DNA from: a virus
Virus record (IMG/VR): IMGVR_UViG_3300025141_000378
Location: 1 to 34,439 of that record
DNA length: 34,439 bases
Direction: 5' to 3' (one strand)
In this document: piece by piece, positions 6,627 through 34,439 of the stretch
Layout of the letters: the number at the start of each line of letters is the position of its first letter
Numbering within the stretch: position 1 is the stretch's first letter
Notes under the pieces: generated by a model
What the model was told of the DNA's origin: nothing
Databases searched by the model: none
What the model saw: only the letters and a program-made list of their open reading frames with translations
Translations under genes and position numbers: made by a program

Positions 6627-7352
6627 GTGATAGAAAAAAACATCATACAAACTCACCGCTCCTACGAGGCTTTAAGGCCGTATGAGCGAGTGTGCCTTGA
6701 GAGGTGGAAGTGGATGAACCCAGACTGGAACTATCGGTTCTTCAGCAACGACGAAGGCGACCTTATCGTCAAGGAAGTGCTGGGTGAGAGGTTTGATGCC
6801 TTTGGTCGGTTTCACTTTGGGGCGAGAAACAACATCAGAAGGGCGTGCCTTATTTACCAACTCGGCGGGCTGTTCGCAGATTGTGACCTTTATCCCGTCA
6901 AGCCGTTGGGCGATTACCTTCCAACCGACAGAGCGAGGGTGTTGTTCAAATACGACGGTCGCCCTCTTTTTCTGAACGGCCTCTTCGCTTCATCAGCGGG
7001 TGATCCTATGGTGATGGAAATTATTAACCTCGCAGTTGAGAGGCTTACGGATGGCAAGCGAACACAGCCTCCAACGAGCGAGCGCGACACTTGGCTTGGG
7101 TGGCATTTTGACACTTGCGGCGTGCATTGTTTTAACGATGTTTTCCTCAAATACGAAAAGGTAGAGGACGGCGTATTGGGAGGTGACTCTCACCCCACCT
7201 TGGCGGGTAAGGAGGGGCATACTGCGGTGGATGAAATCAAGTGCCTCCATCTGGGAACCGCGTGCTGGCATCCCGACGCAAAGGCAGACAACGGAACATT
7301 TGAGAAAGACTTGGCGTTGCTGGATTTAGCCAAGAAGACTTGGGGTATTTAA
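6627..7352 (+). CDS. GT32-type glycosyltransferase (DxD sugar-binding), third of three
   Basis: A 241-aa protein with the classic landmarks of Gly_transf_sug proteins: KNIIQTH near the N-terminus (4-10), NPDWNYRFFS (31-40), and the nucleotide-sugar site RRACLIYQLGGLFADCDLYP (71-90) with DxD at D85/D87. Family members transfer hexoses from nucleotide donors to glycan, lipid or protein acceptors. The start is a GTG at 6627, 4 nt after the previous gene, so the three transferases form one translational block inside the head-assembly operon. This is the clearest of the three calls. Acceptor unknown; a capsid or host-envelope target is inferred from context. Confidence 0.88.
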   Translation: MIEKNIIQTHRSYEALRPYERVCLERWKWMNPDWNYRFFSNDEGDLIVKEVLGERFDAFGRFHFGARNNIRRACLIYQLGGLFADCDLYPVKPLGDYLPTDRARVLFKYDGRPLFLNGLFASSAGDPMVMEIINLAVERLTDGKRTQPPTSERDTWLGWHFDTCGVHCFNDVFLKYEKVEDGVLGGDSHPTLAGKEGHTAVDEIKCLHLGTACWHPDAKADNGTFEKDLALLDLAKKTWGI

Positions 7353-10829: not shown

Positions 10830-13800
10830 ATGGGAGCTACACTAGGAGGTTCTGGATTAAACGGGGCAACGATTCACGTTGACCAAACTGTCACCGAGGG
10901 TGAAATCGTCACCCAGCTAGTAAACGCCAGCGATGGCCAAGGTCTGCACTTCGACGGTGCGGCTGGAAACATCGACATTCCCGGTTCGGGGAGTGCGCCG
11001 GTTGTTGAGCTTGGAACGAAGTTCAGTTTCGAGTACATACTGCAAGCGGATGAGTGGTCTTCGACAAGCAATGTTTATTTAACAGATTTTGGTAGTTCGG
11101 GCCGTTTTATATTTGGCAGTTCAACGAGTGGCACTTCCAACAATCTTGGGGCGCATACGTCATCGTGGGCCAGTTTTGGAATTAACCCGTTGACCGACTT
11201 AAAAGTGCATCATCTCGTGCTGACTGTCGATGACACGGCGATTGTTTTGTATGACAACGGCAATGAAATTGGGACGGCAACGCTCCCAACTTCTCCGACG
11301 ATTGACTTGGCTGCTGATGCGAGGATTGGGGCATCCAACGATGGGTTTGGCAGTTTCTTCAACGGCACAATCTACCGCTGCCGATTCTGGAACAAGACGC
11401 TTTCCCAACCGGAGGTCACGGATGCCTACGAGAATGCGACCGTGCCGTTTGCCGACCAGTATGGGAGTCAGACCGAGAAGGTGACGAATGGAACATTCGC
11501 AAGCGATACTGGTTGGACTAAAAATTCAGCTTGGTCGATTGGTTCGGGCGTTGCAACTGCTGACGGTTCTGCGTCAAATTCTCTTTACCAGAGCGGGGTG
11601 ATTTCATCGACGGGCGGTAAGCGGTATCGTTATTCGTTCGACTATACCCGAACGTCTGGAACCTCGCTGGGGGTGCAATATCACAACGGCAGCAGTTACG
11701 TTGACATCGCAACCGGCGCGGAAACTGGAACCAACACCGCAACCGGCGAATTTGTCACCACCGGCACTCCGGATGGATACATTTATTTCACAGCCAACGG
11801 CAATTGGGCTGGCACTCTGGATAATGTGACACTAGTCGCCGCTGGCTGCGTGGCTGACTACGACCTAGCGTTTAGCAATCCAGAAATTTCGTTTATGGTG
11901 CAAGACCGCGCTGGTGCAGCGGACGGCGAAGCTTCCAATGACGGGACGAACCCAACTGGAATTTCGCAAGTCACGCCTCTTGTCCAAGTGAATGCCACGG
12001 CGGCTCGCATTGGAACGACTGCGGCGACACCGGCTGATGGTGAGTTGTTGGTGAGTGGGAACGTGGGGGTTGGAACCGCCACGCCGGGAACTTACGATTC
12101 CCGTGCAGAACGACTAGTAATTCACGAAGCTGGAGACGGTGGCATTACCATTGCAACCGGCGCGGCATCCGATGGGAGACTTGTTTTTGCGCAGTCTGGT
12201 GATACGGGATTAGACCACGGTGAGATTTCGTACGACCAGAACACTGAAGCAATGGGTTTCGCAACCGCTGGTACTGGTCGCCTCACCATCGACTCGGATG
12301 GCAACGTGGGGATTGGGGCGTCAGCGGCAGACTACGAAGCAGATGCGGACAATCTTGTGGTCTGCGGGGCTGCCCACGCCGGTTTAACTATTGCTACCGG
12401 CACAGCGCACAGAGGTTCAATCTATTTTGCTGATGGAACAACCGGCACTGACCAATACGATGGGTTCATCGACTACAACCACAGCACCAGAGCTATGCGG
12501 TTGGGAACTGGCGGCGGCAACGCTCGCCTCACCATCGACTCGGATGGCAACGTGGGCGTGGGCGTGACGCCAAATGCCAACTGGAGTGGGACGGGAGTTG
12601 CGCTGCAATTGGGCAACGCCGCGCATATTGTGTCATCGGGCGAATATTTATACAGCGGTAGCAACTACTATTACAATTCGGGATGGAAGTATGCCACCTC
12701 CGCTGCGGCAACAAAGTATGCACAAGGCGCGGGGGCTCATACATTTTCTGTCGCGGCCAGCGGGACGGCAGATGGTGATATAAATACAACGGGGACTTGG
12801 ACAGACGCGCTCACCATCGACTCGGCTGGCGCAGTCTCCATAACGACAAGTGCCGCTGCCACAAACCAATTAAAAGTTACGTCTACCGACGGGACGGCGA
12901 CGGTAAAAACATATTCAACAGCAGACGGCAGCGGTTTAATCATTAACCAGAATTACGCCGTGGGCGGACCACCGTACTTGCGGAACGCTGATTTCGTGGC
13001 CTCGGTGGAGGATGCGTCTGCGTCACAGATGCGGTTCTTTACCAAAGCGGCGAGTGCTAACCCAGCACTCGCGCTCACCATCTACAGCACGGGCCTCGCA
13101 GCGTTTGAAGCCGAAGCTGAAATTGTTGGCGACATTCGCCACCGCGCAAATCTTAACGTGCTGAATGCTGCTGCTGACGGCTGGAACGCTTGGGCCACGC
13201 GCCACGCAGCAACCGGCACGGTTGAGTTGAGCAACATTCGGTTCACGGACAAGCAGAACTTGCTGACCAACTCCGGCTTCGATGTGTGGAGCAACTCGAC
13301 GCTGGAGGATGTTGGGAGTGATTTAGTTACTAACGGAACTTTCGCATCCGACACTGGATGGACTAAAAACGCTGGCTGGACTATTACGGGAGGCAAAGGT
13401 GTAGCAACCAGTGCCACTTCGGGTTACGCTATTCTTCAGACAATCCCAACCACGGTAGTTGGCAAGCTGTATAAATTTACCGTAACTGTGTCCGATTTTT
13501 CTGCTGGCGGCATATCCCTCTATAATCCTAGTTATTTTTCACCCGACATCAGCATTACCGCAGATGGCACATACACATTCACTGTTGAGGCGTTGGCTGC
13601 GTTCACAAGTTTTCAAATTCGCGCGTCTGGCACAACCACACTAAAAATTGATGATGTTACATTCACAGAAGTCACGCCGGGGTGCGTGGAGGACACTGAT
13701 ACGCTGGCGATGGATGGGTGGCGTAAAGCCGGAGGTATTGACTTATTTCGCGACCAAACCACCACGAAAGACGGCAGTTTATATTCGCTGAAAATCGACA

Positions 13801-14522
13801 ATACCGCTGGCGAGGCGTGGGACGTTGCTTGGCCGGCGCAAGGCGGCAGTTCACTTGGCAGTAAACCGGAAATTCTGGCCAAGTTCAAAAATCGAACGGT
13901 GACGCTTGGTGCGTGGATTAAAGCGGACGGGTCTAACGAGGCGTGGTTGTCGGTGCAGTCAAGCGCGGGGACAGCCAACTCGACCAAAACAAGCTCCTCG
14001 GATTGGACTTGGGTGGAGGTTACGGCAACCACAGCGGCAGTAATGACAACTGGAATGACTTGGTTTGCTTGTTATGTAGTGTCCGATTCGGGAAGTGTTC
14101 ATCACGTTTCCCAACCGATGCTTGTATTCGGCTCCGCAATCGGCTCGGGGAATTATTCGCGACCGAGCGGGGAGATTGTTTGGTGTGAGGGTAACGCAAC
14201 AACGGCTTTGCCGAATTATAACTCTGTAACCGTATCGTCAGACGCATCGTGGAACTTGGAGGTTGAGACTAATGGGCGCGTTCCCAAAGGCGCAAAAGCA
14301 GTTCATTTGACTTATTATGGAATTGCCGGAACGGCAGATTCCTACTTTGGGTTCGGCCCAGAAGATGGACAACGAACAACGTGGGGAACAGGTTGGGACA
14401 CCACAAACCGTTTGAGGAACTCTGGATGGGTAAACTGCGATTCAAACGGGGATATTTATCTAGACCGGAACAACACTTGGACGGCTGTTACTGTTCTGCT
14501 GAATGCAGTCGAACTTCGATAA
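10830..14522 (+). CDS. Large tail fibre / receptor-binding protein with lectin-like modules
   Basis: A 1230-aa beta-rich protein. Residues about 30-190 resemble a LamG/concanavalin jelly-roll (FSFEYILQAD..., HHLVLTVDDTAIVLYDNGN, IYRCRFWNKTLSQPEVTDAY). Two copies of an NGTFASDTGWTKN module (near 218 and 833) begin CBM4/9-like galactose-binding-type folds. Between them lie repeats of LTIDSDGNVGIG type, common in phage fibre shafts. No S74 intramolecular chaperone is seen at the C-terminus. The protein probably binds glycans on the host surface. The gene contains no CAGCTG although the rest of the window is full of it. AAGGAGAG precedes the ATG. Confidence 0.85.
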   Translation: MGATLGGSGLNGATIHVDQTVTEGEIVTQLVNASDGQGLHFDGAAGNIDIPGSGSAPVVELGTKFSFEYILQADEWSSTSNVYLTDFGSSGRFIFGSSTSGTSNNLGAHTSSWASFGINPLTDLKVHHLVLTVDDTAIVLYDNGNEIGTATLPTSPTIDLAADARIGASNDGFGSFFNGTIYRCRFWNKTLSQPEVTDAYENATVPFADQYGSQTEKVTNGTFASDTGWTKNSAWSIGSGVATADGSASNSLYQSGVISSTGGKRYRYSFDYTRTSGTSLGVQYHNGSSYVDIATGAETGTNTATGEFVTTGTPDGYIYFTANGNWAGTLDNVTLVAAGCVADYDLAFSNPEISFMVQDRAGAADGEASNDGTNPTGISQVTPLVQVNATAARIGTTAATPADGELLVSGNVGVGTATPGTYDSRAERLVIHEAGDGGITIATGAASDGRLVFAQSGDTGLDHGEISYDQNTEAMGFATAGTGRLTIDSDGNVGIGASAADYEADADNLVVCGAAHAGLTIATGTAHRGSIYFADGTTGTDQYDGFIDYNHSTRAMRLGTGGGNARLTIDSDGNVGVGVTPNANWSGTGVALQLGNAAHIVSSGEYLYSGSNYYYNSGWKYATSAAATKYAQGAGAHTFSVAASGTADGDINTTGTWTDALTIDSAGAVSITTSAAATNQLKVTSTDGTATVKTYSTADGSGLIINQNYAVGGPPYLRNADFVASVEDASASQMRFFTKAASANPALALTIYSTGLAAFEAEAEIVGDIRHRANLNVLNAAADGWNAWATRHAATGTVELSNIRFTDKQNLLTNSGFDVWSNSTLEDVGSDLVTNGTFASDTGWTKNAGWTITGGKGVATSATSGYAILQTIPTTVVGKLYKFTVTVSDFSAGGISLYNPSYFSPDISITADGTYTFTVEALAAFTSFQIRASGTTTLKIDDVTFTEVTPGCVEDTDTLAMDGWRKAGGIDLFRDQTTTKDGSLYSLKIDNTAGEAWDVAWPAQGGSSLGSKPEILAKFKNRTVTLGAWIKADGSNEAWLSVQSSAGTANSTKTSSSDWTWVEVTATTAAVMTTGMTWFACYVVSDSGSVHHVSQPMLVFGSAIGSGNYSRPSGEIVWCEGNATTALPNYNSVTVSSDASWNLEVETNGRVPKGAKAVHLTYYGIAGTADSYFGFGPEDGQRTTWGTGWDTTNRLRNSGWVNCDSNGDIYLDRNNTWTAVTVLLNAVELR
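12279..12556 (+). repeat. Internal direct repeats in the fibre gene
   Basis: CGCCTCACCATCGACTCGG begins a near-identical 31-32 bp unit at 12279-12310 and 12525-12556, encoding RLTIDSDGNVG. A more diverged third copy starts near 12808. The nucleotide identity exceeds what shared protein sequence needs, so recent duplication or gene conversion within the shaft is likely. Confidence 0.7.
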
Positions 14523-16661: not shown

Positions 16662-17489
16662 TTAGCTTGTGAGGCCCTCGCGTCCAAACCCTGCCAGACT
16701 GGGGCAAACCACCTTCGCATTCTTGGCATACACTCGGTGGATCGCAGCTGAGTTATGCCCCAGAGCCACCATTGCCAGCCGCTCCGGCATCCCCAGTAAG
16801 AACGCCCTCTCGGCCCAAGCGTAGCGGTAGCTGTGCAGCGTGATGCCGCTGATCCCAAGGGTGAGGCATTTTCGCCGAAAGATGTTGGCTCGCTCCTTCT
16901 GGCCCAGAGCGTGGATGGCGGGTAGATACAACCCGTGCGACCTCCCAGCTGCCACGCCTAGCAGCACCCGCTGCAATTCTGGGCTGATCGCTTGGGCTGC
17001 CCGTACCCCAGTCTTACATCGGTGATAGGTAATCACCCCGCTGGCCAGCTCCTCGATGCGAAAGCTGGCCGCATCGGACTGAGCCGCGCCCGTTTCCCAG
17101 AGGATGTCGAGGTAACATTTCCAGCGTGTGGTGCGAAGGTTAGAGTGCAACCGGCGATGCTCGCTTTCGGTGATCGCTCTGACCGGTCGCTTGGGTAGTT
17201 TTGGCCAGAGCCGCTTGGGTAGGACGGGGTGGGTGAGTAGGCCCATCTCGATGGCAAGGTTTTGAAGTGTGCCGAGGTAGACCTTGGTCTTCGTGCCACC
17301 GGCCTTGAGCAGCTGAAGGAAGTCGCAGCCGTTGGTCGCTGCGATGGGCAGCGATTTGAGTTTATCCCAGCGTTTGTTGCCTAATTCGCGCAGCTTGCGC
17401 TCCACGGTGGTAGCACATCCGGTCTGTATGAATGTGGATATAAGGGTGTCCCAAGTGACAGTGTTCGCGGTCGGTGTCGTGGTGGTCAT
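16662..17489 (-). CDS. int: Tyrosine recombinase (integrase) with an atypical active site
   Basis: A 275-aa protein from the ATG at 17489; a TTG at 17561 would add 24 basic residues overlapping the tRNA-like element. The C-terminal catalytic domain shows TGAAQSD (133-139), K159 in the beta-hairpin, HSYR (H219, R222), GH (H245) and the nucleophile Y254 nine residues later. Arg I, normally in a TGxR motif, is Ala136 here. The N-terminal 100 residues suit a SAM-like core-binding domain. It would integrate or excise the phage, probably at a tRNA-Cys gene given the adjacent element. The family is clear despite the substitution. Confidence 0.88.
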   Translation of the reverse strand: MTTTTPTANTVTWDTLISTFIQTGCATTVERKLRELGNKRWDKLKSLPIAATNGCDFLQLLKAGGTKTKVYLGTLQNLAIEMGLLTHPVLPKRLWPKLPKRPVRAITESEHRRLHSNLRTTRWKCYLDILWETGAAQSDAASFRIEELASGVITYHRCKTGVRAAQAISPELQRVLLGVAAGRSHGLYLPAIHALGQKERANIFRRKCLTLGISGITLHSYRYAWAERAFLLGMPERLAMVALGHNSAAIHRVYAKNAKVVCPSLAGFGREGLTS

Positions 17490-17547
17490 AGTGTTTTTAG
17501 TTGTCGCTGCCCCCCGCTTATGGTTCCTTGCTCGCCGTTCGCTGGGT

Positions 17548-17618
17548 GGCGGGGTAGCCAAGTGGTAAGGCAGGGCTCTGCAAAAGCTCTATCGCCGGTT
17601 CGATTCCGGCCCTTTGAA
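17548..17618 (+). tRNA. tRNA-Cys(GCA)-like sequence with a broken acceptor stem; possible attP
   Basis: The strand folds as a tRNA: 5' acceptor GGCGGGG (17548-17554), D arm GCC/GGC, anticodon stem GGGCT/AGCTC with loop CTGCAAA (anticodon GCA at 17580-17582), variable TATC, and T arm GCCGG-TTCGATT-CCGGC (17594-17610). The expected 3' strand CCCCGCC is replaced by CCTTTGA, leaving only two C-G and two G-U pairs. The molecule is unlikely to be charged. Beside the integrase start, it may be an attachment site sharing most of a host tRNA-Cys. CTCTGCAA from the anticodon arm (17576-17583) recurs at 17622-17629. Confidence 0.6.
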
Positions 17619-20765: not shown

Positions 20766-21310
20766 CTCTCAGCATCCCCGACGAGGTGATGGCGTCCAGC
20801 CTTTCGGTGTCCACGAAAATGACCGTCGCTGTGGCAATGAACCACCCTCTGCACACCAGAGCCGAGGTTGCAAAGCTGCTGAACATCACCCGTGGGAGTG
20901 TCAACAATGCGATAAAAAAGGCTAAACTTGAGGGTATCGATATTGATACAAAGAGTATCGATATCGATACAAAGTGTATCGATATCGATACTCCATACCT
21001 AGTAGGTAGTAGTAGTAGTAGTGGAGAGGGGGAAAGGAAGGCTCAAACCCTCGAAGCAAAACCTCCGACACGGGAAGAGGTCGCGGCTCACGCTGTGACG
21101 GTGGGAGCGGAGGCAATCGTAGATGAATTTTATGACACCTACTCGGAGCGGGGTTGGATGTCGAAGGGGGAGCCGCTCCAAAACTGGAAGGCTATGTTCC
21201 GGTGGTGGACGAAGAACAAGGCAGCTGCCCCGTGCGTCGCAAGTCGCGGCAAGAAGCGGATGTCAGCTGAAGACGCTCGCTACGCTATGGACGCCGCGAC
21301 ATACGAATGA
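20762..21310 (+). CDS. Replication protein with HTH (lambda O-like or helicase-loader role)
   Basis: A 182-aa protein starting at a GTG overlapping the upstream TGA. Residues 31-54 form a helix-turn-helix (HTRAEVAKLLNITRGSVNNAI). Residues 59-77 repeat IDIDTK three times because the DNA underneath holds three 21-bp iterons. A Ser/Gly linker follows, then a C-terminal domain with FYDTYSERGW and NWKAMFRWWTKNK, like helicase-recruiting domains of phage replication proteins. It lies directly before DnaB with an ATGA overlap. An initiator that binds iterons inside its own gene and loads DnaB is the likely role, as in lambda O. Inferred from layout. Confidence 0.7.
   Translation: MTLSIPDEVMASSLSVSTKMTVAVAMNHPLHTRAEVAKLLNITRGSVNNAIKKAKLEGIDIDTKSIDIDTKCIDIDTPYLVGSSSSSGEGERKAQTLEAKPPTREEVAAHAVTVGAEAIVDEFYDTYSERGWMSKGEPLQNWKAMFRWWTKNKAAAPCVASRGKKRMSAEDARYAMDAATYE
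20934..20991. repeat. Three 21-bp iterons with 16-bp palindromes: candidate replication origin
   Basis: GTATCGATATCGATAC, a perfect palindrome, occurs at 20955-20970 and 20976-20991, with a one-mismatch copy at 20934-20949. The period is exactly 21 bp, two helical turns, joined by AAAGA and AAAGT spacers. The array lies in frame within the replication gene and is followed by a TAG/GTA-rich stretch. This matches origins embedded in initiator genes. Confidence 0.7.
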
Positions 21311-22686
21311 ACATCACCGCCACAATTCTAATTCTAATGAACCTAATACCAACCATACCGAACGACCGTAACGCCGAGCTGGGCCTACTGGGTGCAGCTA
21401 TTCAAGGCAAATTCGACGACATCTACGCCGCTGGCGTGAGCGACGATTTCTTCCACGACACTCAGTGCCGAAAAATGTGGAAGAAGCTAGAGGAACTGGG
21501 GGCAAATGGCATACCCATAAAACTGGACACGCTGGCTCACGCTGGTAGCGACACTGCAACAGTCGGCGACTGGATGGAGGCTGAGTCAGCGTGTCCGTCT
21601 GTGGTGAACTGGCCGTACTGGGCCGAGGTCTGCGACGAGAAACGCAAGGCGAGGGTGGCACAAGAGACTGGCCTAGAGCTGGCTCAAAGTGCGGCGACGT
21701 GCGAGAGCATCGAGGAGCTGGTAGCCAAGGCCGAGTCGGCAATGTTCGCGCTGTCCGAAAAGGTTTCCACAAAAGAGGACACCCGCGCCGAGTCATTCCA
21801 TCGAATCGTTGACACGCTGGAGGAGGCACACAAAGGGGGCAGGGTGGGTATCTCCACCGGCTTCCCAGCTGTTGACCGAATCGTCGGGGGTCTTCGTGGT
21901 GGCCAGCTCATCACCATCGCGGCACGTCCAGCCGTTGGTAAGTCTGCGCTGGCTGGCAACATTGCCGAGAAGCTGGTGATGGAAGGCACGCCGGTCGCGT
22001 TCTTCAGCTACGAGATGACGCAAGACGAGCTGAATCTGCGGATGCTCTGTTCGCTGTCCGACACAAACCTAATCGGCGATGTGATTAACGGCGGGGTGCA
22101 AGAGCCAAGCAACCGCCTTCGCGTTATGAGCCAAGCAGCGCAGTGGGTTCCAAAGCTAAAGGCCGCACCCATTCACATCATCGACAACGGCAACCTCACT
22201 GTCTCCCAGATTCGCAGCAACGCTCGCCGCTTGGTCAAGGACAACGGGGTGAAATTGATTGTCGTCGATTACATCCAACTCATTAAGCCAGCTGCCGAGG
22301 ATCGACGAGCGCAGCGACACGTCCAAGTTGGCAACATCACCGCCGAGCTAAAGCAGATGGCGATGGAGCTGAAGGTTCCGGTCATCGGGTTGGCCCAGCT
22401 GAACCGAGGTATCGAGGGTGAGGCAAGGAGGCCGCGCCTGTCGGATTTGAGAGAATCGGGGAGCATCGAGCAGGACAGTGATTTGGTGGCCTTCCTTTAC
22501 ATCGACGACCCCGCGATGATGGACGGCCCGAATATGCTGCTCAAGCTGGCCATCGGGAAGAACCGAGCGGGTCGACAAGGCGAGGTCGATCTGGTTTTCG
22601 TGCGAAACAAAATTAGATTCGAGGATGCGTACCAACCGAAACACGAAGCGTGGCTGAACGAGAAAAAGAAACAGCTGGCGAACTAG
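21307..22686 (+). CDS. dnaB: Replicative DNA helicase, DnaB family
   Basis: A 459-aa hexameric helicase for the phage fork. An N-terminal DnaB-type helical domain (AELGLLGAAIQGK) leads through a linker to the RecA-like domain. It has the Walker A ARPAVGKSA (206-214), the strand AFFSYEMT carrying the conserved Glu, the Walker B LIVVDYIQL (317-325) and LRESGSIEQDSD, a DnaB signature. The length matches bacterial DnaB. The start at 21307 is coupled by ATGA; a Met ten codons downstream is possible. It follows the putative initiator, completing the replication pair. Confidence 0.94.
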   Translation: MNITATILILMNLIPTIPNDRNAELGLLGAAIQGKFDDIYAAGVSDDFFHDTQCRKMWKKLEELGANGIPIKLDTLAHAGSDTATVGDWMEAESACPSVVNWPYWAEVCDEKRKARVAQETGLELAQSAATCESIEELVAKAESAMFALSEKVSTKEDTRAESFHRIVDTLEEAHKGGRVGISTGFPAVDRIVGGLRGGQLITIAARPAVGKSALAGNIAEKLVMEGTPVAFFSYEMTQDELNLRMLCSLSDTNLIGDVINGGVQEPSNRLRVMSQAAQWVPKLKAAPIHIIDNGNLTVSQIRSNARRLVKDNGVKLIVVDYIQLIKPAAEDRRAQRHVQVGNITAELKQMAMELKVPVIGLAQLNRGIEGEARRPRLSDLRESGSIEQDSDLVAFLYIDDPAMMDGPNMLLKLAIGKNRAGRQGEVDLVFVRNKIRFEDAYQPKHEAWLNEKKKQLAN

Positions 22687-23388: not shown

Positions 23389-23808
23389 ATGTTGCCGGAC
23401 AGGGTGGTTGATCGTGGTTGGTTTGCACCTTTAGTGAACACCAGCTGTCTTTTTTTTGTGAAAGATGAGGCAGCCATTTACGAGTTGGTTAGCGCAGTCA
23501 TCGTCCAAGCTGCCATCGACTTCGTCGATGCCCACAAAAGTGGAATCATCTACGGCCACCACACCGTCGATCCCGACAGAATGCAGCGCATCGTACAAAA
23601 AAACCACCCATCCCGATGCTCGCTGCCAAAGTGGATGGAGCCGTCGGACGTGTATTCGTGTGTGTCGTTCCTGTTTCTCTCAACAACGCTCGAAGACATC
23701 ATCCCCACGGCTTGGGAGGTCAGTCCCGATGCTGTGCGGAGTGCCATTATTGAAGCTGCTCAAACGGGAGCCGAGATGAGACTGAATTATCGCCAAGAAG
23801 GTTTATAG
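23389..23808 (+). CDS. Hypothetical protein upstream of gmd
   Basis: A 139-aa protein; the start is uncertain (ATG 23389, or GTG 23458 giving 116 aa). The well-formed part begins KDEAAIYELVSAVIVQAAIDFVDAHKSG and continues with mixed helices and four cysteines. It ends 2 nt before the gmd start, so the two are likely translated together. Nothing links it to sugar chemistry, and no family is recognised. Confidence 0.55.
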   Translation: MLPDRVVDRGWFAPLVNTSCLFFVKDEAAIYELVSAVIVQAAIDFVDAHKSGIIYGHHTVDPDRMQRIVQKNHPSRCSLPKWMEPSDVYSCVSFLFLSTTLEDIIPTAWEVSPDAVRSAIIEAAQTGAEMRLNYRQEGL

Positions 23809-23810
23809 CT

Positions 23811-24797
23811 GTGAGTAAAGTACTAATCACTGGAATAACTGGGCAAGACGGCAGCTGGCTTGCGGAGAAGTTGCTGGCCAAGGAGTACGAGGTGCACGGC
23901 GTGGTTCGTCGAGCCAGCACAATCAGCACCGACAGAGTCGACCACATTTACGAGCGCATCCAGCTGCACCGTGGAGATGTCACCGACTTCCGCTCGCTGG
24001 CGGGTATCGTCAAGAGGGTGCAACCTAATTGCGTCTACAATCTGGCAGCTCAGTCGCAAGTGCGCGACTCGTTCGACGTGCCGGACTCGACGCACGGCAT
24101 CACGTTTGGCGGGGCAGTCAACGTGTACGAGGCGGTGAGGCTGTTCGCGCCGGAGGCAGCTGTCTATCAAGCCAGCTCGTCGGAGATGTTCGGCAACGAA
24201 CTGCGCGACGGGGAGGCTCTGAAGGAGAGCACATCACTGGCTCCCGTCTCCCCCTACGGGATAGCCAAGACGGCTGCACACCATACCGCTGCGCTGTATC
24301 GGGACGCCTACGGTATGGACATCTCGTGCGGCATCCTCTTCAACCACGAGAGCGAGCGTAGAGGTGAGACGTTTGTCACCCAAAAAATTGCCAAGGCAGT
24401 CGCCGAGTTTGTCATCAAGCGACGTGACGTGGAGCGCAACCCGCTGAAGCTGGGCAACCTCTCCGCAGCGAGGGACTGGGGGTACGCGCCAGACTATATG
24501 GACGCTGCCATACTGATGGTCGAGTCGGGCAACCCAAGCGACTACGTCGTGGCAACTGGTCGCAGCTGGAGCGTGAAGGACTTCCTAGTCAAAGCATTCA
24601 AATACGCCAACGTCGGACACTGGAGTGACTACGTCGTGGTGGATCAAAGACTCAAGCGGCCCAACGAATTGCACACGCTGATCGGTGACGCCTCCAAGAT
24701 AAAGAAGGAGCTGAAGTGGCAGCCCACTGTCAAGTTTGCCAAGCTCGTGGAGAAAATGGTGGATTATCAAATAGACCAGATTTACAGCAAGCGATGA
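23811..24797 (+). CDS. gmd: GDP-mannose 4,6-dehydratase
   Basis: It converts GDP-D-mannose to GDP-4-keto-6-deoxy-D-mannose using bound NADP+, the first step to GDP-L-fucose. The 328-aa short-chain dehydrogenase carries GITGQDG (8-14) for the cofactor, NLAAQS (77-82), the catalytic SSSE segment (122-125) and YGIAK (Y149, K153). The GMD-specific stretches FNHESERRGETFVT (177-190) and GNLSAARDWGYAPDYM (215-230) are also present. All catalytic residues are in place. It is slightly shorter than the bacterial enzyme of about 370 aa. The start is a GTG. Its partner fcl lies 0.9 kb downstream in the same operon. Confidence 0.95.
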   Translation: MSKVLITGITGQDGSWLAEKLLAKEYEVHGVVRRASTISTDRVDHIYERIQLHRGDVTDFRSLAGIVKRVQPNCVYNLAAQSQVRDSFDVPDSTHGITFGGAVNVYEAVRLFAPEAAVYQASSSEMFGNELRDGEALKESTSLAPVSPYGIAKTAAHHTAALYRDAYGMDISCGILFNHESERRGETFVTQKIAKAVAEFVIKRRDVERNPLKLGNLSAARDWGYAPDYMDAAILMVESGNPSDYVVATGRSWSVKDFLVKAFKYANVGHWSDYVVVDQRLKRPNELHTLIGDASKIKKELKWQPTVKFAKLVEKMVDYQIDQIYSKR

Positions 24798-24991
24798 ACA
24801 TCTTGAAAGAGGATACCCATATGGACGCTGACCTTGGAGGGGCATACATCAGCGCACGCATCGTCAAGCTGAAGTTCAGCGGCCAAGAGCTGGCTCACAT
24901 CCTAGCTATAAACAAAGAAGACATACCCGAAGAACTGGTGGAGGTGGTCGAGGTCATCCTTGGCCCAGCTTGCCAGTACAACACGCTGTGA
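24794..24991 (+). CDS. 65-aa hypothetical protein coupled to gmd
   Basis: It starts at an ATGA overlap with the gmd stop and ends at a GTGA overlap with the DnaA-like gene. It is acidic, with a helix (ARIVKLKFSGQELAHILAI) and a Val/Glu-rich end (ELVEVVEVILGP). An internal ATG at 24821 is an alternative start. No family is recognised. Confidence 0.55.
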   Translation: MNILKEDTHMDADLGGAYISARIVKLKFSGQELAHILAINKEDIPEELVEVVEVILGPACQYNTL

Positions 24992-25293
24992 AAAACAAAA
25001 TGAAAAACAATTTACGACAGCTGGCACAAGCTGCCTCTGCGTATTGGAAAATACCAATGGATCAGCTGCAAAGCACATCACGCAAACCGTCGCTGGCTTG
25101 GCCTCGGTGGGTGTGTATGTACCTCGCAATCGATGCGGGTTATAGGCGCGTCGATATAGGCAACTGGTGGAGGCGGGATCACTCCACCGTGACACACGGG
25201 AACAAGAAAGTCGGCGAGGCGATCCAGCTGTACCCCGCTGACAAGCAAGACGTACTCGATTTCGTGGATTTTTGGAGAGACTCCCTCCGATGA
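24988..25293 (+). CDS. Stand-alone DnaA domain IV-like DNA-binding protein
   Basis: A 101-aa protein. RRDHSTVTHGNKKVGEAI (62-79) is the DnaA signature helix (consensus GRDHTTVLHA..KI), and the upstream part (AASAYWKIPMDQLQSTSRK, WPRWVCMYLAIDAGY, VDIGNWW) matches the preceding helices of DnaA domain IV in order. The AAA+ domain III is absent, so it cannot form an initiator filament. It may bind DnaA boxes to recruit or block host DnaA, or act at the phage origin. The start is a GTG at 24988 by overlap, with ATG 25000 as alternative. Confidence 0.8.
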   Translation: MKNKMKNNLRQLAQAASAYWKIPMDQLQSTSRKPSLAWPRWVCMYLAIDAGYRRVDIGNWWRRDHSTVTHGNKKVGEAIQLYPADKQDVLDFVDFWRDSLR

Positions 25294-25778
25294 CAGACAG
25301 AGAGAAAAAGGCTAAAGAGTACGAGGGTCACGTCATCCAGCTGGTGAGGGCAAAGGATCGGTGCGCGTGGAGTTCGCCGCCCAACCAGTACGCCAACATT
25401 GACGGTATCACCTACGACTCGGTGACTCACGAAATGATAAGCGCGTATGAAATTAAATGCCGCAACCTCTCGTTGCCCCAGCTGTTGCTGGACTACGGTG
25501 GCGAGCTGATTGTCGATGCCTCCAAGGTGGAGGTGCTTCAAAGCATCAGCCGCTCGCTGCGTATCCCCAGCTATCTACTGTGCTACTGTTTGAAGGACGG
25601 GGTGGTGTTGAAGTCGAAGATAACGAACGACAGCGGCCTCTTCGTCTGCGATAAAAAAGACACCACGAGAGAAATCTCAGCTGGAATGGACAAACCGACC
25701 ACGACCAAGAAGGTGTCACATATCAAGCTAGATGGAACAATTATTCTCTCCACCAAGGAACCTCAAGGAACAGTCTAG
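25290..25778 (+). CDS. Putative PD-(D/E)XK-like nuclease
   Basis: A 162-aa protein from the ATG at 25290 (ATGA overlap). SAYEIKCRNL (E54-I-K56) after a strand resembles the ExK half of a PD-(D/E)XK site, preceded by ITYDSVT with D43 as a possible metal ligand. A helix-strand pair follows (LQSISRSLRIPSYLLCYCL). The C-terminal 40 residues are Lys/Thr-rich and overlap fcl by 47 nt. The fold assignment is plausible but not certain; specificity is unknown. Confidence 0.5.
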   Translation: MTDREKKAKEYEGHVIQLVRAKDRCAWSSPPNQYANIDGITYDSVTHEMISAYEIKCRNLSLPQLLLDYGGELIVDASKVEVLQSISRSLRIPSYLLCYCLKDGVVLKSKITNDSGLFVCDKKDTTREISAGMDKPTTTKKVSHIKLDGTIILSTKEPQGTV

Positions 25779-26718
25779 GCGCAAGGTATTCGTCGCTGGC
25801 CACAACGGAATGGTTGGGCGTGCCGTGATCCGTCGCCTCCAGCTGGATGACAGCTGCGCAGTCGTGCTCCCCGATGAGCGCAGCGATTACCGTGCGCTGC
25901 ACAATGTTGTTCGTGATATACAGCGAGCCAAGCCGGACGTGGTTGTGCTATGCGCCGCCAAGGTTGGGGGTATACACGCCAACAACACTCAGCGAGCGGA
26001 CTTCATACGGGACAACCTACTCATCGAGCTGAACTGGATCGAAGCCGCACGCCAGTTTGGAATCGAGAAGCTAATTCTACTGGGGAGCAGCTGCATCTAC
26101 CCTCGCAACGCACCGCAACCAATGGCCGAGGAGTCGCTGCTTACTGGCACGTTTGAGCCAACCAATCAACCCTACGCCATCGCCAAGGTGGCTGGCATTG
26201 AACTGTGCGACAGCTATCACCAACAGCACGGCTGTAATTTCTTTGCGCTGATGCCGCCCAACCAGTACGGCCCCTTCGATAACTTTCGGGAAGGTGAATC
26301 GCACGCTGTAGCTGCGTTCCTACGGCGAGCTTACGAGGCCAGCGACACCGACACCGCAGAGCTGTGGGGTAGCGGCTCACCCAAGCGTGAGTTTATGCAC
26401 GTTGACAATCTGGCCGACGCCGTTAGGTTTGCAATCGAGAATGTAAACGCAACCGACTGCACCAACGGATTCCTAAACGTGGGAACCGGCGAGGAGTGTA
26501 CCATTCGCCAGCTGTGGGAGCTGGTCGTGAAGATCAGCGGCAAGACAATTGCCACCACATACGACACGTCCAAGCCGGACGGCGCACCAAGAAAACTGAT
26601 GGACTCCAGTCGGATCAACCAGCTGGGCTGGCGTCACTCGATCCAACTGGAGGACGGACTACAATCAACGTGGCAGTGGATGAAAGACAACTGGAACGAC
26701 CAGACTGTACGGCGATAA
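25732..26718 (+). CDS. fcl: GDP-L-fucose synthase (GDP-4-keto-6-deoxymannose epimerase/reductase)
   Basis: It catalyses the 3,5-epimerisation and NADPH reduction that complete GDP-L-fucose after GMD. The 328-aa protein has GHNGMVG (23-29), AAKVGGIHAN (75-84), LGSSCIYP (117-124) with S119 and C121, PYAIAK with Y148 and K152, and H191. These sit at the same spacings as Ser107, Cys109, Tyr136, Lys140 and His179 of the E. coli enzyme. KREFMHVDNLADA and KPDGAPRKL are further family marks. An N-terminal extension of about 16 residues overlaps the upstream gene. Predicted active. Confidence 0.95.
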   Translation: MEQLFSPPRNLKEQSRRKVFVAGHNGMVGRAVIRRLQLDDSCAVVLPDERSDYRALHNVVRDIQRAKPDVVVLCAAKVGGIHANNTQRADFIRDNLLIELNWIEAARQFGIEKLILLGSSCIYPRNAPQPMAEESLLTGTFEPTNQPYAIAKVAGIELCDSYHQQHGCNFFALMPPNQYGPFDNFREGESHAVAAFLRRAYEASDTDTAELWGSGSPKREFMHVDNLADAVRFAIENVNATDCTNGFLNVGTGEECTIRQLWELVVKISGKTIATTYDTSKPDGAPRKLMDSSRINQLGWRHSIQLEDGLQSTWQWMKDNWNDQTVRR

Positions 26719-27092
26719 ACACCGGCAACCTCGGCGAGCTGCTTGTGTCCAAGGAGCTGGCTGTTCGAGGCTGGTCGGTGTGCCTCCCAATATTTAACGG
26801 CAACGTCAGCCGGTTCGATGTGATCGCAGCCAAGAACCAACAGCTGCACCGCATACAAGTGAAAGCCAGCGGCCAGCGCAATGCCGTTCACAACTTTACC
26901 ACCGGCCACGGCCTACGCAGCAAGGTGCGGTACGACATAGGCGACTTCGACTTTATGGTGCTGGTCGCCGTACCCGTTGAAGACTTTTTTATCCTGCCTG
27001 TCGATGTTGCCACGCAACACGTCGGCATAAAGGTTGCAGTCGGCGGTAAATACTGGCAGTACCGCAATCGCTGGGACTTGATCGAGGAGTGA
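26670..27092 (+). CDS. PD-(D/E)XK endonuclease-like protein
   Basis: A 140-aa protein starting at a GTG (26670 or 26676) inside the end of fcl. NTGNLGELLVSKEL (E23), SRFDVIAA (D50) and HRIQVKAS (Q63-V-K65) match the small PD-(D/E)XK group in which Q replaces the first acidic residue of ExK. A beta strand YDIGDFDFMVLVAV follows. It is the fourth nuclease-like gene in this early operon. Restriction-like, resolvase-like or homing roles cannot be separated from sequence. Confidence 0.7.
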   Translation: MAVDERQLERPDCTAINTGNLGELLVSKELAVRGWSVCLPIFNGNVSRFDVIAAKNQQLHRIQVKASGQRNAVHNFTTGHGLRSKVRYDIGDFDFMVLVAVPVEDFFILPVDVATQHVGIKVAVGGKYWQYRNRWDLIEE

Positions 27093-27557: not shown

Positions 27558-27623
27558 CTAGCTGGACGCTTTGTTGAGCAGCTGATAGCTGCCCCCGCTG
27601 TGGTGAGGTATCGGTTGTTTCAT
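27558..27623 (-). CDS. Possible 21-aa ORF after the RlpA-like gene, maybe a gene remnant
   Basis: It starts at an ATGA overlap with the RlpA-like stop and encodes MKQPIPHHSG... before a TAG. About 20 nt further, in another frame without a start codon, follows a Lys/Gly/Cys-rich stretch KKACGGCKHQIE (about 27530-27475) like the end of small phage CxxC proteins. The two together could be a frameshifted small gene. Confidence 0.3.
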   Translation of the reverse strand: MKQPIPHHSGGSYQLLNKASS

Positions 27624-27994
27624 CGCAGCACCTCCATCTTAATCTGAATCAGCCCCGCATCGGTGTGTGCCAGCTGGCGAAAGGCTGCACGAGATAAATC
27701 AATCTCGCGCCCCTTCACGAACGGGCCTCGGTCTGTGATTGTGACCACCACAAAGCGCGGCCCCAGTCTGCACCTAACCCGTGTGCCGAATGGCAGCTTG
27801 CGGTGCGCAGCTGTTAGTTTGTCGGGATCAAACAGCGAACCGCTTGCGGTCGGCTTGCCCCGATACTTCTCGCCATACCAGCTGGCTGTGACCAGCCCCG
27901 CCTTGTCGCCGATCGCTTTGCCAACGACGATCAGCGGGATGGCTGCGACCATTGCGACAGCTGCCGCCCACTCTAGGATAAACAGCTGTTTCAT
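27620..27994 (-). CDS. RlpA-like lytic transglycosylase (double-psi beta-barrel)
   Basis: A 124-aa protein from the ATG at 27994 with an AAGGAG site. An N-terminal hydrophobic segment (WAAAVAMVAAIPLIVVGKAIG) is a signal anchor. The RlpA domain follows: ASWYGEKYRGKPTASG (37-52), LTAAHRKLPFGTRVR (60-74), TDRGPF (87-92) with the conserved Asp, and GREIDLSRAAF (95-105). RlpA enzymes cleave peptidoglycan strands lacking stem peptides or only bind them. In a phage it may aid lysis or modify the wall. There is no SPOR domain. The fold is secure, the role is not. Confidence 0.88.
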   Translation of the reverse strand: MKQLFILEWAAAVAMVAAIPLIVVGKAIGDKAGLVTASWYGEKYRGKPTASGSLFDPDKLTAAHRKLPFGTRVRCRLGPRFVVVTITDRGPFVKGREIDLSRAAFRQLAHTDAGLIQIKMEVLR

Positions 27995-28146
27995 ATGTTG
28001 CTCCTTTCCAGCGACTCCTTTGGCGTGCGCCAAGGTTCGCGCTTCATAACTAACTGCTTAACATTCCAACCCTGAACCCCTTTAACCGCCTTCGATTTCG
28101 TCGCCGTCGTGTGTCGGCGTTTGCGTTGTTTCGGTTTCTGTTTCAT
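27991..28146 (-). CDS. 51-aa basic protein upstream of the RlpA-like gene
   Basis: It starts MKQKPKQRKRRHTTATKSK, with GGGAAAG upstream, and ends at an ATGA overlap with the RlpA-like gene. A third of the residues are Lys or Arg, which suggests nucleic-acid binding. It is joined by ATGA overlaps to genes on both sides. No family is recognised. Confidence 0.55.
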   Translation of the reverse strand: MKQKPKQRKRRHTTATKSKAVKGVQGWNVKQLVMKREPWRTPKESLERSNI

Positions 28147-32033: not shown

Positions 32034-32180
32034 CTAATCCGCCAGCTGTACCCACTGCATTAATAGTCTATCCGCTCGCCGTTCCTGCGCCCGCGTAGGC
32101 TCGGCTCTTTGGTTGGTAACGTGGCGGGCTGCCCGCCTACGCTGCGCCGGTTTGCGTTTGGTGCGCGGTCTGTTATTCAC
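32034..32180 (-). CDS. 48-aa arginine-rich protein
   Basis: A GTG at 32180 overlaps the upstream TGA. The product (starting MNNRPRTKRKPAQRRRAARH) is about one third Arg/Lys and ends in MQWVQLAD. Coupling to the larger gene upstream supports expression. RNA or DNA binding is likely from charge alone. The 73 nt to the next gene contain no feature. Confidence 0.5.
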   Translation of the reverse strand: MNNRPRTKRKPAQRRRAARHVTNQRAEPTRAQERRADRLLMQWVQLAD

Positions 32181-33073
32181 AGTTGCACCTCCGATCCCTT
32201 TTGCTCGGCCTGCTCGTTGTACAGTCGGCGCACCTCTTCCATCGCCTTTGCGGGCGTGCGGTACTTGGTTTGCTCCCGCAAAACCCCAAGGTGAATCACG
32301 TCGGACGGTATAGCTGCTGCTGGTATAGTCGCGGCGCTGCCATAGCCGCACTCATAGCCCGCGCCGTCCGTGAACGGATCATTCTCTACAATCCCAAAAA
32401 GGATACGGCGCAGCATTGAGGGATGCCCCATTGCAAAAGCCACTGTATCAATATCGAGTACATTTTCAGCGCGCTTGGCGCAGACCATCGGCGCGTAAAA
32501 CTTGCCGCCCGTGGCAGTGGCGAAAGTCACCCAAATTTCACAACGAGCGCCGCTGCTCTCGATTTGATCGACCAGCGCCGCGACAGCTGCGCCACGGTTA
32601 GCAATAACGTCCGCATCAACGTGTGCGCTTGCCGTGCTGTTAATCAAAAACTTGACCAGTGGCTTTTCGCCAAGCTGATCGCCGTCGTTTACCATATGGC
32701 ACACTTCGCCTGCCACAAAGAGCGGTACGTCCGGATAAGCGCCGCCTACTGAATGTTCCAAGGCTGCGCCGCTGGTTAGCTCAGCTGCGCCGCTGGTGAA
32801 TATGTCGGTTAAATTAGCCGCGACCTTTTCGCGACCCTCATCCCAACCGGTCAGCGCCAGCTGCTCAGCAGCTGCGAAGTTGGCAGACATTGTCCACTTG
32901 GCGTAGTAATCGCCCGCCCTGCGACTGGACACGCTGTCGGCGCTGGTCTTCCATCCCGCCGACGGTTTGCCGCCCGCGAACGATACGGCCTCTGCCACGC
33001 TTGGCCACTCTGGTTGGCTGAGTGTTAATTTTCCGAAACCGCTCGGATCAAGTAAATCGGATTGATTTAGCAT
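32177..33073 (-). CDS. Partner protein of the MoxR-type ATPase (DUF7192-like)
   Basis: A 298-aa protein from the ATG at 33073 with an AAGGAAAAG site. It has an N-terminal region with FAAAEQLALTGWDEGREK (about 88-105) and a C-terminal alpha/beta region, VKFLINSTASAHVDADVIANRGAAVAALVDQIESSG..., laid out like a von Willebrand A-like fold: a strand, then a helix, then EIWVTFA. Phages often pair such proteins with MoxR/CobS-type ATPases. The resemblance to DUF7192 is from memory. It lacks a clear DxSxS metal site (it has INSTAS). Function unknown. Confidence 0.65.
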   Translation of the reverse strand: MLNQSDLLDPSGFGKLTLSQPEWPSVAEAVSFAGGKPSAGWKTSADSVSSRRAGDYYAKWTMSANFAAAEQLALTGWDEGREKVAANLTDIFTSGAAELTSGAALEHSVGGAYPDVPLFVAGEVCHMVNDGDQLGEKPLVKFLINSTASAHVDADVIANRGAAVAALVDQIESSGARCEIWVTFATATGGKFYAPMVCAKRAENVLDIDTVAFAMGHPSMLRRILFGIVENDPFTDGAGYECGYGSAATIPAAAIPSDVIHLGVLREQTKYRTPAKAMEEVRRLYNEQAEQKGSEVQL

Positions 33074-33106
33074 TGTTCTTTTCCTTTCCTTTTGTTGTTG
33101 TGGTTT
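33074..33106 (-). promoter_or_regulatory. CAA-rich leader of the 33073 gene
   Basis: Leftward, AAACCACAACAACAAAAGGA precedes AAGGAAAAGAACA and the ATG at 33073. It combines the CAA element with a good Shine-Dalgarno. Confidence 0.5.
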
Positions 33107-34274
33107 ATGCGTTGGATTTAATATCAGCTTCAATTTTTGCAATTGTCGCAGAATCTAGCGCCTTCCAAACCGCGGCAGATTCGGCCTCTTTTTGTGTTTC
33201 CCCAATCGCTAACAATTTGGCCAGCTTGACAGTGGCGCGCATTGAAACGGTATGGCGTATTTTGAGGCGCTCGACGGCCCGCCGGACAGCCTGCACGCGC
33301 TCAGCTGCTGCCAAGCCGTTCTCGTAAACACCGGCGATGCTGCGCTCGAGCTTTTCGTCGTACCCAACCGGAACGAATAAAAACCGATCGATCAGAGCGG
33401 AATCCTGCTGCTGGCGAGCGTTGTGTTCGCGGGACGCGCCGCCAAGCGCCGTGTTACCGGCCCCGAGGCAGACAAAGTCTTTATGAGCTTCAAAAATGCC
33501 GTGCGGAAAGTCGCACCGACGGTTAGCAAGCGACCCGTTTAAGCGCGTTAGCACGTTGGGATTGCTGGCGTCCATCTCATCAAAAAGAAACAGTCCGCCA
33601 CGAGTAAATGCCTTGAAAAAAGGTGTTTCGTGGTACTGGCCGCCGCCATCAACGAATCCTTGGAAATGGTGCTCGGCGCTAATTTTCGACGTGAAATAAA
33701 AATTCAACTCCAAAGCCTCGGCCAGCTGTTTGCCAAGCTCAGTTTTACCAGTGCCAGCGGGGCCGTGGCAGTAAACATCCTCGCCAGCTGCCAACTTGCG
33801 GAGCAGTGACGGGAAAACGCTGTGCGTCGGGGCGGTGATCTTTCGCGTTTTCGCGCCGCGAATAATGATTTTCTCAGTGGGCAGCTCAGTTGGCACGCGG
33901 TCGGCGATTATCTCGTTGCAAATCGCAACACACTCGTCGCGGTCGATGCCGTTCAGCAGTGATTCAACAAGTGCTTTTCTGTCAACCGGCGTAGTGGTAA
34001 CAACCGGCGCAGTGGACGGCTTCGCGTCGGCGCTGGCAGCTGCCCCGCCTACAGCTGGCAGCTGCCAGCCTTCCAGCGGGAACCGGCGCTGAATCGCCAC
34101 GGCGCGGTAGTCGCTCAGTTTATATCCTTTGACTTGGCCATTGATCCAGTCGGCAAACACTGCCCGCCAGTCGGCGCTCGGCATTGCGAGGCAGCTTGCC
34201 TTGTTGAGCTGTCTGATATAGCTGCGCAGCTCAGTTTGCTTGAGCTGCATAATATCGTTTTTGTGTTTTAGCAT
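33105..34274 (-). CDS. AAA+ ATPase, MoxR/CobS-like
   Basis: A 389-aa protein from the ATG at 34274. The N-terminal 140 residues are a helical, possibly DNA- or partner-binding domain with a Pro/Ala/Thr linker. The AAA+ core has Walker A GPAGTGKT (171-178), Walker B LFLFDEMDA (228-236), sensor-1-like GAGNTALGG (271-279) and an arginine finger in ALIDRF (R297). MoxR/CobS ATPases remodel metal-chelatase or von Willebrand A partners, and the next gene is probably that partner. As first gene of the leftward operon it is likely immediate early. Confidence 0.88.
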   Translation of the reverse strand: MLKHKNDIMQLKQTELRSYIRQLNKASCLAMPSADWRAVFADWINGQVKGYKLSDYRAVAIQRRFPLEGWQLPAVGGAAASADAKPSTAPVVTTTPVDRKALVESLLNGIDRDECVAICNEIIADRVPTELPTEKIIIRGAKTRKITAPTHSVFPSLLRKLAAGEDVYCHGPAGTGKTELGKQLAEALELNFYFTSKISAEHHFQGFVDGGGQYHETPFFKAFTRGGLFLFDEMDASNPNVLTRLNGSLANRRCDFPHGIFEAHKDFVCLGAGNTALGGASREHNARQQQDSALIDRFLFVPVGYDEKLERSIAGVYENGLAAAERVQAVRRAVERLKIRHTVSMRATVKLAKLLAIGETQKEAESAAVWKALDSATIAKIEADIKSNA

Positions 34275-34298
34275 TGTTTTATTTTGTTGTGTTGTGGC
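34275..34298 (-). promoter_or_regulatory. CAA-rich leader of the AAA+ gene
   Basis: Leftward, CCACAACACAACAAAATAAA precedes ACA and the ATG at 34274. There is no Shine-Dalgarno. TATACAAT at 34307-34314 (leftward) could be a -10 for the leftward operon, with no clear -35. Confidence 0.4.
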
Positions 34299-34371
34299 GT
34301 GATTGCCATTGTATAGTTCAACAAACAGCTGGCGCATTTGCGGTTGGGATGGCAAAAAGGTTGCCGGTTTT

Positions 34372-34439
34372 ATGTCAAAGAGAATTGATGCCGCGCAACT
34401 GAAGTTGGCGAAGGCGATGCGAAAAGAGGGCAAAAGCTG
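34372..34439 (+). CDS. Start of a rightward gene, perhaps helix-turn-helix; cut by the right edge
   Basis: ATG at 34372 opens a frame MSKRIDAAQLKLAKAMRKEG... that runs to the window end (22 codons). The helix followed by KEGKS resembles the first helix of resolvase or transposase-type HTH domains (R-EGKS-ysxIA). An AAGG lies 14 nt upstream. It diverges from the AAA+ gene, so 34275-34371 would be a divergent promoter region. Too short for certainty. Confidence 0.4.
   Translation, partial: MSKRIDAAQLKLAKAMRKEGKS

Follow-up and report, generated by a model that had tools for sequence, protein, structure and literature searches.

The 34,439-base IMG/VR virus record IMGVR_UViG_3300025141_000378, which stems from a marine bacterial virus and is referred to here over its whole length as the window, encodes on its plus strand a GDP-mannose 4,6-dehydratase (GMD; 23811..24797, GTG start, 328 aa) and a GDP-L-fucose synthase (GFS, also known as GMER or Fcl; 25732..26718, 328 aa). 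Read rightward, the locus consists of g22, GMD, a 65-aa open reading frame (ORF), a protein with a DnaA C-terminal domain, a nuclease with an Hjc-like predicted fold, GFS, and a PDDEXK_5 nuclease. A preliminary description of this DNA had proposed that both steps from GDP-mannose to GDP-L-fucose are encoded here, and the two predicted enzymes, each full length and with an intact active site, confirm this at the level of sequence.

GMD aligned to PF16363 as a full-length extended-SDR match (positions 1-332 of 332, E 6e-102). Its best solved relatives are all GMDs (220-278 bits, with 1n7g at the top with 278 bits), the next enzyme class, GDP-6-deoxy-D-lyxo-4-hexulose reductase, scores 119 bits, and the protein nests among GMDs in a tree. 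It carries the GxxGxxG nucleotide motif (GITGQDG) and the GMD signature LFNHESERRGETFVTQKI, and the catalytic Ser/Thr-Ser-Glu and Tyr-x3-Lys residues, S124, E125, Y149, and K153, were invariant in 10 of 10 aligned sequences. GFS matched the E. coli GDP-fucose synthase over its full length (E 5e-93), with S119, C121, Y148, K152, and H191 invariant in its relatives, including one that is 53% identical. The further claim that both enzymes keep all their catalytic residues was therefore borne out. The same families, full-length proteins, and catalytic residues are found in the bacterial colanic-acid gmd-fcl pair (E. coli, 1db3/1bsv), which differs in that its genes are adjacent in a chromosomal polysaccharide operon.

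Comparisons of close relatives revealed that GMD and GFS are under strong purifying selection in this lineage, with dN/dS values of 0.04-0.11 for GMD and 0.03-0.06 for GFS, compared with 0.10-0.17 for DnaB. Together, the E-values and the purifying selection exclude chance as the source of the two matches. The lineage copies of each enzyme form a single clade (SH-aLRT 100) on a long stem, separate from other viral copies and from those of the Planctomycetes phylum, the one phylum from which bacterial homologues were sampled, and the nearest sampled bacterial homologues are less than 50% identical. A recent capture from that phylum was considered and found unsupported, given the long separate clades of both enzymes. 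In two relatives (L113 and L068), GFS is 80% identical to that of the window, above the identity of DnaB (59-67%) and GMD (61%), which suggests piecewise exchange.

The organization of the locus became clear when the window genes were located in the loci of relatives, which had been retrieved through similarity to DnaB, GMD, and GFS. In relatives that have no sugar genes (L104, L106/L107, and L114), g22, the Hjc-like gene, and the PDDEXK_5 nuclease gene are consecutive, apart from a small ORF between g22 and the Hjc-like gene in L104. L107 and L105 share 86% identity as far as the final bases of g22. From there, L105 has one insert ahead of the Hjc-like gene, made up of a glycosyltransferase (GT), the DnaA C-terminal-domain gene, GMD, and a phosphomannose isomerase (PMI) cupin, and a second insert, GFS, behind it; L107 has neither. 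Two insertion sites therefore flank one conserved Hjc-like nuclease gene. The first, from g22 to the Hjc-like gene, holds GT, GMD, and PMI, and the second, between the two nuclease genes, holds GFS. Other occupants are found as well: the slot of L118 and L119 is filled by three GTs and a WcbI-like gene, and that of L121 and L122 holds a GT, an ORF that looks methyltransferase-like by eye (with zero Pfam or PHROGs matches), and GFS, there without GMD. Across 12 de-duplicated readable slots, both genes were present in seven, neither in four, GFS alone in one, and GMD alone in none, counts that are biased toward carriers by the choice of relatives similar to the window; the linkage of GMD with GFS (Fisher p 0.01) is indicative only, as these contigs are related. 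A search by GFS similarity gave 31 other IMG/VR loci, and 28 of them contain a GMD as well, some on contigs of 34-47 kb.

Within the window, the first insertion site is bordered on the left by the conserved ORF g22 (23389..23808, plus strand), separated from GMD by a 2-nt gap. An ATGA overlap with the GMD stop at 24794 leads into the 65-aa ORF (24794..24991, plus strand), for which a Pfam search gave zero matches and whose homologues stand before the Hjc-like gene in L113, L068, and L008. The DnaA C-terminal (DNA-binding) domain protein follows (24988..25293, plus strand; PF08299, E 2.3e-12), its start being set at 24988 from a GTGA overlap, where the listed ORF starts at 24970; its gene adjoins GMD in eight relatives. 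The PD-(D/E)XK-type nuclease ORF begins at the next ATGA (25290..25778, plus strand). Profile searches returned no family match for it, but AlphaFold (pLDDT 92) and Foldseek gave matches mostly to archaeal Hjc Holliday-junction resolvases and SPARDA nuclease chains, and its D..ExK motif (D38, E54, and K56) is unchanged across 11 relatives. GFS overlaps this ORF by 47 nt at 25732, and the PDDEXK_5 nuclease (PDDEXK_b; 26496..27092, plus strand, domain at about 26721-27023; PF11645, E 3.5e-11) forms the right border of the second site, the gene that comes directly after the Hjc-like gene where the sites are empty.

The preliminary description had read this arrangement as sugar genes interleaved with DNA-metabolism genes and coupled to them by start/stop overlaps, in place of a simple sugar cassette. 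The interleaving and the overlaps are real. The contrast with a cassette is mistaken: the DNA genes form the unchanging backbone into which the sugar genes are inserted, and the fucose genes look interleaved because the two insertion sites flank a single nuclease gene. A functional coupling of sugar and DNA genes was likewise rejected, since relatives that lack sugar genes retain the DNA genes. The locus belongs to a collinear plus-strand run with a dNMP kinase, a single-stranded DNA-binding protein, an exonuclease, and, upstream of GMD, a DnaB-like replicative helicase (21307..22686, plus strand; PF03796, E 6.5e-72); the run extends to 27379, where hairpins between convergent genes close it. 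The "early" label that the preliminary description gave the operon is plausible from gene content and otherwise unsupported. A promoter scan was uninformative, with five promoters found against 4.9 expected.

Possible signs of exchange were also seen at individual related loci. An HNH gene with a recombinase-like C-terminal stretch stands directly after GMD in three of them (L113:9959-10441, L068:2893-3375, and L115:6266-7078) and is possibly a mobile element that aids sugar-gene movement. Another contig (L116:1-10353) matches the window at 99.7% identity as far as a point shortly ahead of the dNMP kinase, beyond which it has the L113-type allele; this is either a recombination junction or an assembly chimera.

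A candidate for the transfer step is encoded in the structural gene module of the window. This GT32/Och1-like, GT-A-type GT (6627..7352, plus strand) contains a DXD motif (GGLFADCDLYP) and zero hydrophobic segments. GMD, GFS, and a GT32-like GT are all encoded in the window. The PF04488 score of this GT (E 0.0013, 19.8 bits) is under the Pfam cut-off of 23, which several relatives' GTs pass at 27-37 bits; a GT from the L118 sugar slot shares 53% identity with it. A profile search matched Och1, and for the AlphaFold model (pLDDT 83.6) Och1 was best by TM-score among the significant Foldseek hits (TMq 0.62). The GT-A fold, as predicted, and the DXD motif are common to the window protein and to the yeast Och1 alpha-1,6-mannosyltransferase of the Gly_transf_sug (GT32) family, although sequence identity is very low. 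The relatives' GTs were located through synteny, and a viral scan queried with the window GT returned no stretch. GT adjoins GMD in eight relatives, and in L152-L155 a related GT stands between TerL and the next gene. As the gene is found in the sugar slot of relatives, in the structural module of the window, and next to TerL, it is mobile, and it moves between slot and structural module across the lineage. Of the plural "glycosyltransferases elsewhere" in the preliminary description, this one GT was detectable, and the plural is not supported. PMI is absent from the window. In L105, L108, L006, L007, and L008, a PMI cupin (PF01050; 97-118 bits in the two that were scored) lies directly after GMD, and in these relatives it would let the route begin at fructose-6-phosphate, provided that the host supplies phosphomannomutase and GDP-mannose pyrophosphorylase.

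Viral GMD and GFS pairs are of an already known kind. The premise that only single sugar genes were known from phages is not right, as adjacent GMD and GFS occur in many Synechococcus and Prochlorococcus phages (PMC9602691) and are common in cyanomyoviruses; these pairs, together with the active pair of a chlorovirus (PMC5408694), also led to the rejection of the idea that both steps in a phage are new or unusual. At least 556 IMG/VR stretches encode GMD relatives. In the 229-kb myovirus S-SCSM1, a cluster comprises MPI, GMD, GFS, GDP-mannose 3,5-epimerase, fucosyltransferases, and GTs (PMC9602691) and is annotated as GDP-L-fucose synthesis. S-SCSM1 resembles the window lineage in its consecutive, overlapping GMD and GFS genes, the GTs of its cluster, and a type II PMI nearby. 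It differs in its directly adjacent GMD and GFS, contiguous sugar island, large T4-like genome, and recognised fucosyltransferases; its proteins are about 45% identical to those of the window, and the stretch read has no interleaved nuclease or DnaA genes. The S-SCSM1 GMD has a wcaG motif annotated nearby; no RNA element of this kind was found in the window, where Rfam gave only the tRNA. Prochlorococcus phage P-SSM2 likewise has GMD followed by a GFS-type gene, with nucleotide-sugar epimerases and glycosyltransferases, but in a large T4-like genome, with contiguous genes and GTs of family 2 rather than GT32-like. The GMD and GMER of chlorovirus PBCV-1 make GDP-L-fucose in vitro, and its capsid glycans contain fucose (PMC5408694). 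That two-step route is virus-encoded as well, with gmd and gmer jointly present or absent between virus types; it differs in belonging to a eukaryotic giant virus, in genes that are not in one cassette, and in activity shown by experiment (PMC5408694). Three features are new here: the lineage, whose portal-like protein, named by position only, had no match among 50,697 phage records; the placing of the cassette at two sites on either side of an Hjc-like gene, sites that are naturally empty in some relatives; and the mobility of the GT. A complete nucleotide-sugar route is thereby shown to occur beyond the large cyanomyoviruses, in a lineage of uncultured phages. Relatives with GMD, GFS, PMI, and GT, with other sugar genes, or with none provide a natural comparison at one site, which allows one to ask what viral sugar genes do, and whether virion glycosylation or a change of the host surface is the selected trait.

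GMD and GFS are best explained as one branch, the one leading to GDP-L-fucose, of a modular glycosylation cassette that is encoded by the phage and in which GDP-fucose feeds a phage GT, a reading to which a probability of roughly 0.7 is assigned. In the infected cell, GMD would convert host GDP-mannose to GDP-4-keto-6-deoxymannose, which GFS would convert to GDP-L-fucose, and in relatives a phage PMI would boost the supply. The soluble GT32/Och1-like GT might then place fucose, or the sugar of another GDP-sugar, on a cytoplasmic acceptor. Because this GT is encoded among structural genes and lacks a membrane segment, a virion protein is tentatively favoured as the most likely acceptor; a host envelope glycan comes next, as a possible one. 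The sugar genes appear to come and go at gene borders as related phages exchange them, and the DnaB/nuclease backbone remains in place. A bolder picture, in which a temperate-looking marine lineage decorates its virions with deoxyhexose through its own PMI, GMD, GFS, and GT and swaps cassettes around a Holliday-junction-resolvase-like gene in a recombination hot spot that diversifies the glycans, is rather unlikely. The purposeful fucosylation route proposed in the preliminary description is likely in so far as an intact two-step route is under selection and linked to a phage GT; fucose transfer itself is unsupported, the only GT being of the GT32/Och1 type.

Several points, including the carrier bias noted above, weigh against the cassette explanation. 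Both enzymes fall below their NCBIfam equivalog cut-offs (GMD 337 bits against 415 for TIGR01472, and GFS 382 bits against 500 for NF047922), which are conservative naming thresholds. For GMD, the threshold is not a mechanistic feature, and gmd is still the best-scoring NCBIfam family, by 240 bits; cyanophage GMDs pass the same cut-off with 539-569 bits, and the window GMD is thus, on its sequence, a divergent family member. Accepted cyanophage GFS proteins are likewise below the GFS cut-off, at 455-462 bits. In L113 and L068, the slot contains GMD and GFS but no GT, although both contigs are short. A recognisable fucosyltransferase family was not found among the scanned window ORFs (Pfam and PHROGs) of this probably incomplete record. 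GT32-like enzymes are not known to transfer fucose, so the final transfer step is the weakest part of the explanation, and GDP-fucose may instead serve a host GT, or the phage GT may use another sugar.

The most probable alternative is that GDP-fucose serves a phage or host GT that modifies the envelope of the infected or lysogenised cell, at its lipopolysaccharide or at a different glycan, and so prevents superinfection or restores receptor traits. This is possible, though not favoured: slot genes of relatives resemble envelope-polysaccharide genes (WcbI and Caps_synth-like GTs), an integrase beside a tRNA-Cys-like gene suggests temperate life, and cyanophage GMD and GFS have been described as cell-wall modification genes (PMC9602691), whereas the window GT is soluble and lies within the structural module, and the scanned window ORFs contain no membrane GT (GtrA/GtrB/Gtr), flippase, or polymerase of the Wzx/Wzy type. 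Conserved catalytic residues in a GFS that accompanies GMD under equal constraint, and the persistence of GFS alone in L121 and L122, make it improbable that fucose is not the point, and that the GMD-like enzyme mainly yields another product, such as GDP-D-rhamnose, or the pair drains GDP-mannose. That possibility draws on the divergence of the window GMD and on the second, reductase activity of PBCV-1 GMD, which also yields GDP-D-rhamnose (PMC5408694).

The position of the sugar genes between replication and nuclease genes, with a dNMP kinase present, could also be accounted for if a GDP-sugar were put on phage DNA, and phage DNA glycosylation exists elsewhere, for example with pentose in phage Thanatos (PMC12838424). 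Such hypermodification is nevertheless very improbable, as the DNA genes persist without the sugar genes, so that their proximity is not a sign of functional coupling, and the scanned window ORFs yielded no thymidylate-synthase-like protein, dCMP hydroxymethylase, or DNA glucosyltransferase. Scarcely credible is the view that these are recently captured host sugar genes without benefit to the phage. Their absence from L104, L106, L107, and L114 would fit such passengers; the long-standing phage clades, low dN/dS, insertion at gene borders, translational overlaps, and the distance to the nearest sampled bacterial homologues do not.

The record itself is probably incomplete. A contig of the same species continues for about 9.3 kb to the left of the window, with tail-type genes, and one relative is 48.9 kb long, so that the "compact genome" of the preliminary description is unsafe. 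A tRNA-Cys-like gene (17547-17617), in which the 3′ strand of the acceptor does not pair, is overlapped at its start by a tyrosine integrase on the minus strand (16662-17617 region); 45 bases of the tRNA-Cys-like gene are identical in L113, whose integrase is 76% identical to that of the window. The region looks like an attachment site, and the lineage is probably temperate. The only host lead is a 9.5-kb phage contig (L197; NHEC01000087.1), with a TerL 83% identical, which is binned in a Planctomycetes metagenome-assembled genome (TMED75). Naming a host from this lead was rejected, as the binning of a 9.5-kb contig is unsafe. The tRNA-Cys of the window did not match that genome; among 392 Planctomycetes-phylum genomes, its best match was 86% over 65 bases. 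Since 81 of 119 sampled genomes of the phylum carry a strong GMD, a host of this type might already make GDP-fucose.

Elsewhere in the window, the right end (32177-34433, minus strand) encodes a DUF7192 protein next to an AAA (MoxR/CobS-like) ATPase, and this pair is conserved at the corresponding genome end in L108, L118, and L119. A lineage-conserved DPBB/RlpA-like protein of the lytic transglycosylase type, with a hydrophobic N-terminus, is encoded convergently with the replication run (27620-28033, minus strand) and is possibly a lysis gene. A 1230-aa tail-fibre-like protein (10830-14522) has a concanavalin A/laminin G-like domain near its N-terminus (PF13385) and is a possible glycan binder.

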